Source: Utricularia gibba
Lineage: Eukaryota; Streptophyta; Magnoliopsida; Lamiales; Lentibulariaceae
Reading direction: 5' to 3'
Assembly (NCBI GenBank): GCA_002189035.1
Contig: NEEC01000019.1
Location: 1,426,001 to 1,490,000, forward strand
DNA: 64,000 nucleotides
In this document: piece after piece, positions 60,495 through 64,000 of the stretch
Layout of the letters: each line of letters opens with the position of its first letter
Position numbering within the stretch: position 1 is the first letter of the stretch
Translations under genes and position numbers: made by a program
Notes under the pieces: model-generated
Databases searched by the model: none
What the model saw: the letters and a program-made list of their open reading frames with translations, nothing else
What the model was told of the DNA's origin: nothing

Positions 60495-62746
60495 ATGGCT
60501 GGGATCATGGGGAAGAAAAAGAAAAGCAGCTTGTTTTCAGCAATCAAAAGGATTTTTAGTTCCAAGGAAACAGATGTAAGGTTCTAATTCAAGTTCTCCA
60601 TTCTTGATGGCAGCATTGTGTCACTAAATCTTCGTTCTATGGAAATATCCAACTCTATGCATACCCCTGTTTGAGCTTTGATTAAGGCATTAGGAGCCTC
60701 TCTCTACAAAGTGCAGTTGTTTTAACTTCAATTGATAGTTTTTGGGTTTTCTGCATATCAGCACCTCATATTGTATATGCTCTTGGTTGTTGCCTGGACG
60801 CAGAAAAAGAAAGGCATATGGGCACCTAGTGAAACCAGGTCTTTGTTTCCCCTGTTCAGAGGACCAAGCAGTATTGAAAAAATTTTGGGGGAAGCCGATC
60901 AGCTGAACATCCGCCCTCGGTTGTTTTTAGAGTCCCCTACAACTCAAGAAAAGCTAGCCTTGGGGAAATCTCCTACTCCCCCAAAGTCTGTCTCTCCTAG
61001 AGCATGTTCCTCAAATGATCCCGGCCATGTTCCTCCTGAGCTTTTTGCTGCAAGCTCTTCTAATTCTGTAGCTCCTTGTCTTGATCCTCTTTCCCATTTG
61101 AGGGAAGGCAGAAATGAAATCACCTGCGTGATAAAGGGAAGTTCTCCTTCAAGTGACCCTGAACCGAATGCTCCGGAATGTTCCTCTAATGGTGGGGATC
61201 CTTCGTTTGATCCTGCACCATCTGCCACAAAAGGGAGAGAGGAAGTCAGCAGCCTCGACCGCTATCCTGATCCTGAGCCAGATACCCTCCTTGCTAGCTG
61301 TTCTCATTGTGGAGGACCTTCCTCCCGTGTGTTAGAAGGTAGTAAAGAAATCAGCAGTGTCGAGAAGAATGCTTCAGCTACTAAGATTCAGGCAGCATAC
61401 AGAGGCCATCTGGTTTTGCTTCTCCCCTCTCCATTCCAGCACTGTTTTCTGCTCTCTTGCAACGCGTGTTCGTTATCGAAACTCATAGCTTTCTGTGTGT
61501 TGATATACAGGTGAGGAGGAGTTATCGGGCCTCAAAAGGCCTAGCGAGGCTGCAACGAGTGATGAGAGGCAGAACGTAAGGCGTCAAACAGTGAGTGCCA
61601 TGAAGCAAGTGCAGCTTCATGTAAGAGTTCAGAGACATATTCAGTCCCAGAGGAAGAAAGTGCTCGAAAACCAGACGCTGAAGCACCAATCTAATCATAC
61701 AGAGAAAGATACTGAGAGCCGCTTGAGCAAACGAACGTTGAGTCAAATTCTGGTGAGCTCTTGCATGATGCTTTCATTTCCCTCCCTGTCATCATTCTTT
61801 CTAGTGGATGCTTTTTTATCTTCATTGTGCTTCTTCAGTCTGAATCCACCGGAGCCGATGATTGGAACGACAGCTTGCTAACGAAAGAGGAGGAAGAAGC
61901 ACAACTCCATAAAAAAGCAGAAGCAGTCATGAAAAGAGAGAGAGCCATGGCGTATGCATACTCTCACCAGGTAATGTGCATCCCTGGAGAATCAATCTGC
62001 AATGCTGCTTCTTCGATATCAAGTTCTTTTACCGTTCCCATGTTGATGCCACCCTCTGCTATCAGCTATCAAAGAACCAGAAGTTGGTGGACGCCACTCA
62101 GAACCTGGGGTACGCTCGATTCCCCTGGTCATGGAACTGGTTCAGCGATCAGCTGCCTGTAGCAGATGCTTCACAGAGCCAAAAAGCAGCAGAAAGTGTT
62201 GCATCAACTCCTCTACAGGCTTCCTCAGAGACAGAGTCGAGCACCCGCTTCCTTACAAGATTCTACAACCACAGGAATCTGTATTCCAAGAGTGGAGGGT
62301 CTGTCACGCCGCAATCCACAAAGTCAGCAGCCCTTTTAAGGCCAACCAAAAGAAACCCGTTAGGAACCAGGAGGTTCTTCATATCAAGAGCAAGTCCTGT
62401 TAGTTCAGCTGGTGACACTCAACCGAAAGATGATGACAGCCACTTGAGCTGCCCTCCGTTCTCCCGTCCTCATTACATGACGCCCACGATCTCAGCATTG
62501 GCGAAAGCAAGAGGGGGTAGCAATCCGAAGGAGAGACTTCCCGGCACTGCGGACTCCGGGAGGCGGCGATTCTCGCTTCCCTTTACTCCGGACAGCAGAA
62601 ACTTGAAATGGAAGAAAGGGGATTCCGGATCTCAGACAGGAAGTCAGTACCAGGAGTCTCCGAGCTCCAACAAAAGCTATGTTGCAAATTCGACGGTTTC
62701 CATGCCGGCTTTTGTTGGCAGAAAGCCTTTTAACAGATTTGTATGA
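60495..62746 (+). CDS. IQD: IQ67-domain (IQD) calmodulin-binding protein (one-base frameshift)
   Basis: Plant-specific scaffold that binds calmodulin and microtubules. The first exon encodes MAGIMGKKKKSSLFSAIKRI then FSSKETD (an inner ATG at 60507 is possible). The second exon has KKKGIWAPSETRSL, a long Ser/Pro-rich acidic stretch, and the start of the IQ67 domain ASATKIQAAYRGHL. It splices at the phase-0 site usual for IQD genes to VRRSYRASKGLARLQRVMRG. The domain continues VRRQTVSAMKQVQLHVRVQR and HIQSQRKKVLENQTLKH. Later parts are EAVMKRERAMAYAYSHQ, FPWSWNWFSDQLP and the conserved C-terminal RPHYMTPTISALAKARGGSN with RRRFSLPF, ending GRKPFNRFV. At 61573-61574 one A seems missing: GGC-AGA-AC-GTA would read RNVRRQ with an extra A, but as given runs into TAA. 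Otherwise complete. Subgroup not assigned. Confidence 0.9.
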
Positions 62747-63010
62747 ATCCTTTGTGCATGTCATGGCCATGTTTTCTCTGTTTTCTATTGAACGTGCATT
62801 AAAAAAAAAAGGAGTTGACACTGAGAAAAAAAATACTTAATTTTAAAAAGAAAGACCTTAACCACATCCAAGTACCAAATTAAAATTCAATATTTCACGA
62901 TCACTATAAATCGTATCGATTTTATATTTGAGGTAAATTTTATAATTGATAATTTGACACCAATATCTAGAGGTGGACAGGGGACCGATTCAACAGGTTG
63001 CAGGTCAACA
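62747..63010. other. IQD 3' flank
   Basis: AT-rich downstream sequence of the IQD gene leading into the GC-rich repeat array. No feature. Confidence 0.5.
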
Positions 63011-64000
63011 TGGAGCCGGGCTGGGCTGCTACCAGGAGTCGAGCTGGGCTGCCACGAGGAGTCGAGCTGGGCTGCTAAGAGGAGTCGGGCTGGGCTGCTA
63101 TGATGAGTCGGGTCGGGCTGCTACAAGGAGTCGGGCTGGGCAGCAACACTGAGCCCGGCGGGGCTGCCACGAGAAGTCCGGCTGGGCTACAACACGGAGC
63201 CGAGCTGGGCTGCCACGAGCAGTCCGGCTGGGCAGCCACAAGGAGTCGGGCTGCGCTGTCCCGAGGAGTCGGGCGGGGCTGCCACGAGAAGTCCGGCTGG
63301 GCTACAACACGGAGCTGAGCTTGGCTGCCACTACGAGTCAGGCTGGGCTGCCACGAGGAGCCGGGCTGCCACGAGGAGCCGGGCTGAGCTGTCACGAGGA
63401 GTCGGGATGGGTTGTCACGAGGATCCGGGCTGAGCTTCCACGAGGATTCGTGCTCCGTGTTGCAGCCCAGCCCGACTCATTGTGGCTGCTCAGCCCCACT
63501 CCTCGTGACAGCCTAGCCCCACTTCTCGTAGCAACCCAGCCCACTCCGTGTTATAGCCCAGCCCGGCACATCGTGACAGCCGACCCGACTCCTCATGGAA
63601 GCCCAGCCCGGCTCCGGGTTGCAGCCCAGCCCGACTCCCTGTGGCAGCCCAGCCCGGATCCGTGTTGCAGCCCAACCCGGCTCATTGTGGCTGAGCAGCC
63701 CCACTCGTCGTGACAGCTCAGCCCCACTCCTCGTAGCAGCCCAGCCTAGCTCCGTATTGTAGCCCGGCCCGGCTCATCGTGGTAGCCGACCCCGACTCCT
63801 CATGGCAGCCCATCCCAGCTCCTTGTTACAGCCCAGCCCGGTTCCGTGTTGCAGCCCAGCCCGACTCCTCGTTGCAGCCCAGACGGATCTGTGTTGCAGC
63901 CCAGCCGACTCCTCGTGGCAGCCCAGCCCCGCTCCGTGTTGCAGCCCAGCTCGACTGCTTATGGCTTCCAGCCCGACTCCTCGTGGCACCCCAGCCCGGC
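63011..64000. repeat. GC-rich 23-bp tandem array with an orientation switch
   Basis: A minisatellite with a 23-bp unit close to GAGTCGGGCTGGGCTGCCAC plus GAG. From 63011 to about 63448 the units read in this orientation. From about 63454 to the window end they read as the reverse complement (CTCGTGGCAGCCCAGCCCGA plus CTC). Copies differ at many positions, with a few 18- to 22-bp units. Two higher-order patterns are visible: a block repeats after 115 bp (5 units) near 63171 and 63286, and in the inverted half blocks repeat after about 205 bp (63476 and 63681). The array is far richer in G+C than its AT-rich surroundings. Open frames through it on both strands are by-products of the period and do not look like genes. 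It runs off the right edge. Confidence 0.93.

Follow-up and report, generated by a model that had tools for sequence, protein, structure and literature searches.

A GC-rich 23-bp tandem array with an internal strand switch, nested in a MITE copy of Utricularia gibba

The routes by which short tandem arrays spread to new sites in a genome are, to our knowledge, poorly understood, and one locus of Utricularia gibba bears on the question: an array of 23-bp units lies inside a copy of another repeated element, and near one of its ends the units change strand. How did the array come to lie there, and how did part of it come to point the other way? We analysed a window of 64,000 nucleotides (positions 1426001-1490000 of the contig, label G000:C142) and searched the 100-Mb assembly of 516 contigs to which it belongs; positions prefixed L009 refer to a fetched locus that reaches past the window, such that L009:5745 is position 67745 in window numbering.

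The array and its two arms

The whole insert (L009:1012-5752; 4,741 bp, GC 66%) is a degenerate, GC-rich tandem array, in which about 200 diverged copies of a 23-bp unit fill 4.7 kb and the first tenth is directed oppositely to the rest. TRF reported a 23-bp array at 63012-63454 (consensus GGAGTCGGGCTGGGCTGCCACGA) and a reverse-complement array from 63459 or 63462 to the window end, and an independent unit scan found 18 plus-sense and zero minus-sense units left of 63448 and only minus-sense units from 63457 onward. By these two methods, a left arm of 18-19 units occupies 63012-63448 on the plus strand, and a right arm of minus-sense units occupies 63454-64000 and runs on, off-window, to about L009:5745. 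The scan of 63011-64000 counted 38 units in 990 bp, versus a mean of 0.9 and a maximum of 4 in base-shuffled sequence, so that a unit within the 10-100 bp range of minisatellites is repeated head to tail well above chance.

The arms are very unequal in length (0.44 kb plus, 4.3 kb minus) and 70-79% alike, a difference of 20-30%, which bears out the divergence between them noted in an earlier, sequence-only reading of the window. That reading had set the limits of the two senses at 63011-63448 and 63454-64000: the senses are as described, but the first array base is 63012 and the minus arm, followed beyond the window as had been recommended, continues for a further 3.75 kb. Its description of a large inverted repeat holds for the opposite senses but overstates the symmetry, since the 0.44-kb plus arm alone can pair and the mirror register (below) is not above average.

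The first part of the right arm has a higher-order period of 205 bp, or nine units, and the left arm one of 115 bp, unlike the 205 bp that adjoins the junction. Further along the right arm (L009:4590-5400) there is a recent-looking multi-unit repeat with a period of about 269 bp, and the right edge of the array (L009:5738-5752) holds both a small stem (CTCGT-GCG-ACGAG) and, beside the duplication described below, a possible 10-bp remnant of plus sense (ACGAGAAGTC). A coding origin of the array was rejected: a period of 23 bp is not divisible by three, and the frames of the array are short, mutually overlapping ORFs. No match to a known RNA family was found over 5.6 kb.

Insertion into a MITE

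The array is a discrete insertion: its flanks, once joined, rebuild a hAT-like MITE with TAGAGGTGGAC inverted ends. Directly to the left of the array, the plus-strand stretch 62968-63011 (TAGAGGTGGACAGGGGACCGATTCAACAGGTTGCAGGTCAACAT) begins with TAGAGGTGGAC, runs up to GTCAACAT, and matches MITE 5' ends, which its 44 bp resemble more than random window pieces do (p 0.005). To the right, the element resumes off-window with GTCAACATAAAAAATCG and ends at L009:6074 in the terminus TGTCCACCTTTA, which matches TAGAGGTGGAC. The target-site duplication of the host element, read directly, is near-perfect: CCAATATC at 62960-62967 and TCAATATC at L009:6076-6083, one base beyond the MITE end, agree at 7/8 bases. 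Among eight copies of the family, true pairs of flanking 8-mers match at a mean of 6.0/8 bases versus 3.55/8 for permuted pairs (0/5000 permutations). The right part of the element is dispersed in the genome, where 20 further places match it, so that the family has at least 20 degenerate members besides this copy; those that were aligned show a likeness of 65-81% to it, and most stop at approximately the same point. Seven other copies measure 340-421 bp between their inverted ends, and the copy with the array 5,107 bp.

Like other hAT-like MITEs, the host element thus has short terminal inverted repeats, an 8-bp duplication, and small, non-coding, dispersed copies. We read it as a member of that group, the superfamily being suggested by the 8-bp duplication, by the TAGAGGTGG ends, which we take to resemble those of rice nDart1, and by the abundance of hAT transposase domains in the genome. 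Plant hAT-type MITEs such as nDart1 likewise have short inverted ends, duplications of about 8 bp, lack of coding sequence, and many dispersed copies (PMC12595863); the array, unlike the MITE family itself, is an insert in a single copy. The hAT dimerisation domain has at least 150 matches genome-wide, several of them in reading frames that stay open for about 700 codons and may encode intact hAT transposases.

A second duplication stands at the edges of the array itself, where GTCAACAT at 63004-63011 is repeated exactly at L009:5753-5760 (off-window) and is the sole exact 8-mer common to both edges. Because other MITE copies carry GTCAACAT or a close variant once at this site, and the present copy carries it twice, once on each side of the array, the simplest reading is that array DNA inserted into the MITE with an 8-bp target duplication, although the match could be an 8-mer coincidence, the chance of which, exactly at the edges, we put at about 1 in 1000. 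We rejected the possibility that the array arose by amplification of a piece of the MITE itself, since the other MITE copies are continuous over the insertion point and lack any unit, and also the birth of a minisatellite between short direct repeats, since GTCAACAT is absent from the units.

The surrounding genes are plant genes. An IQD/DUF4005-like gene (with a DUF4005 match slightly under the curated cut-off) ends at 62746, its stop about 265 bp upstream of the array, and a Stress-antifung (DUF26) gene lies on the other strand beyond it, which places the array between two convergent 3' ends.

Related arrays and their dispersal

A genome-wide search with a 25-base unit pattern (at most 3 mismatches) returned 72 places, all within four arrays; the reversed control pattern returned zero in the same genome, and no solo units were detected with the 25-base pattern. 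The three further arrays uncovered by genome searches, which the sequence-only reading had called for, are each essentially single-orientation and close to a gene: two are of plus sense on C4 (at 530.0 kb, 0.48 kb long, and at 928.8 kb, 0.87 kb long), and one is of minus sense on C413 (at 4352 kb, 1.6 kb long). None of the three has a convincing target duplication, just weak or array-derived matches, and insertion with duplication therefore rests on one locus. Apart from a thiolase fragment, the four loci have no flanking sequence in common beyond matches that are short, weak or AT-rich. The C413 array has a Tim17-family gene on one side and a gene of opposite orientation on the other, and a lone plus-sense unit remnant (GGAGCCGGGCTATC; about 4352.2 kb, L012:4165-4195) stands ahead of it and may mark another, minor change of strand.

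At its end, the C4:928.8 array is fused to 34 bp that match the first exon of a thiolase gene at 32/34 positions (L011:5207-5241, C4 about 929.7 kb). The gene itself is about 370 bp away from the C4:530 array and, on the same contig, 400 kb away from the fused fragment, and no further copies of the exon were found in the genome. Because one array thus carries an exon piece from beside another, the evidence favours a spread of the arrays in which DNA next to them is copied or captured.

With its degenerate head-to-tail 23-bp unit, GC content of 66%, higher-order periods, and euchromatic, gene-adjacent position, the array resembles GC-rich minisatellites. Unlike minisatellites in general, it is nested in a MITE, flanked by an 8-bp duplication and divided by an internal strand switch, and its unit was found at four loci only and not as solo copies. 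One alternative is a foldback-type transposon, an element with long inverted termini of tandem subrepeats that would have entered the site whole, generating an 8-bp duplication, and that would have strongly unequal arms. Like Tetris and Galileo, the array has opposite-sense arms of tandem subrepeats and an 8-bp flanking duplication (in Tetris, the inverted termini contain tandem repeats and the duplications measure 8-9 bp; PMC4079207); the arms extend to both edges, the duplication is exact, and the C413 minus array is likewise preceded by the short plus remnant GGAGCCGGGCTATC. However, no conserved terminal or middle domain is present, the arms measure 0.44 versus 4.3 kb, the array edges neither mirror each other nor match as inverted termini at the duplication, and each of the three other arrays is essentially of one sense and has no convincing duplication, so that common ends and target duplications do not recur among the four. 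A foldback origin is, in our judgement, unlikely, and it is more doubtful still that the array represents a new mobile minisatellite, a plant foldback-like element built of 23-bp units only that makes 8-bp duplications, possibly by way of a hAT transposase, and seeds arrays near genes. In Tribolium euchromatin, the satellite-type repeats of TCAST satellite-like elements are likewise scattered close to genes, and some of them are paired in opposite sense and bear the hallmarks of transposons (PMC3411249); there, the repeats make up the terminal inverted repeats of an element that recurs, whereas the present array is internal to one MITE copy.

Origin and predicted effect of the strand switch

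The orientation switch (63434-63458; read directly as ...CCACGAGGATTCGTGCTCCGTG...) contains a 5-bp stem, CACGA/TCGTG, around GGAT. A unit variant ending in CAACAC (GTGTTG on the other strand) is found on both sides of it, in 3/18 left-arm units and at 26 right-arm places, and in 0 of about 120 units of the three other arrays; similarly, left-arm units are on average nearer to most right-arm segments than to the arrays of other loci. Because of this locus-specific variant and the closer likeness of the units, both arms most likely descend from one array. The mirror register about the junction scored 378-416 versus an array mean of 412, with the best value (492) at L009:4120, and the left arm matches best at about L009 3960-4600, its best matches lying 1.4-3 kb away. 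Since the register is not above average and the best matches are distant, the switch fits the inversion of an array segment, or its relocation in inverted form, and not a palindromic copy, and the junction stem may have helped the inversion. The earlier proposal of an old internal inversion, after which the arms had time to diverge, agrees with the distribution of the variant and with the present likeness of the arms.

The same stem-loop (CACGA-GGAT-TCGTG) would suit snap-back priming, in which case the left arm would be an inverted duplication of the adjacent right arm, made by palindromic template switching at the junction hairpin. We regard this as improbable: a mirror duplication at the junction was rejected when the register scan revealed no excess there, the best left-arm match lies elsewhere, and the 115-bp period of the left arm differs from the 205 bp beside the junction. 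Less probable again is the side-by-side insertion of two separate arrays of opposite sense, given that the unit family, although known in both senses at other loci, lacks the CAACAC/GTGTTG variant outside this one, that no spacer marks the switch, and that a single duplication encloses both arms. Least plausible is an assembly or library artefact from a chimeric or fold-back read, hard as such repeats are to assemble, because the arms differ by 20-30%, matched MITE halves and unique flanks enclose the array, and the flip lies mid-contig; the sequence-only reading had already discounted a single-molecule fold-back, and in this it is supported.

We consider it probable that a minisatellite was captured by a hAT-type MITE and then grew and was partly inverted. 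A GC-rich 23-bp minisatellite would have inserted, with an 8-bp target duplication, into a pre-existing hAT-type MITE between the convergent genes, most likely when a staggered double-strand break captured array DNA and not by cut-and-paste transposition, because the array has no terminal inverted repeats like those of known transposons. After insertion, it may have grown to 4.7 kb by unequal exchange or slippage, and an end segment of about 0.44 kb may have been inverted through end-joining or a template switch inside the array, a step for whose reconstruction the units are too short and too diverged. Our literature search on strand-switching minisatellites found nothing specific. The locus is a well-bounded, real structure, unusual in detail; its overall explanation is ordinary, and repeats are known to evolve in ways of this kind.

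The 990 nt around the switch have a predicted fold of -700 kcal/mol versus -457 (sd 7.6) for shuffles (z = -32), whereas a one-sense 990-nt piece of the same array folds no better than its own shuffles (z +0.4); folded as DNA, 201 nt of the switch region gave a z of -7.2. Because the fold lies far below that of shuffles and the one-sense piece does not, a transcript over the switch would form a long imperfect hairpin, as had been suggested from the letters, and by this prediction the locus resembles hairpin small-RNA loci, whose transcripts fold in the same way. The effect is likely passive: any read-through RNA from the IQD-like gene, which would be the closest origin for such a transcript, would carry an imperfect hairpin of about 0.4 kb that could be diced.

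With four arrays in a small genome, one of them bearing a clear insertion footprint and another a fragment of a gene that adjoins a third, the dispersal and strand switching of such repeats become testable, and the inverted stretch beside a gene end offers a natural test of hairpin silencing.
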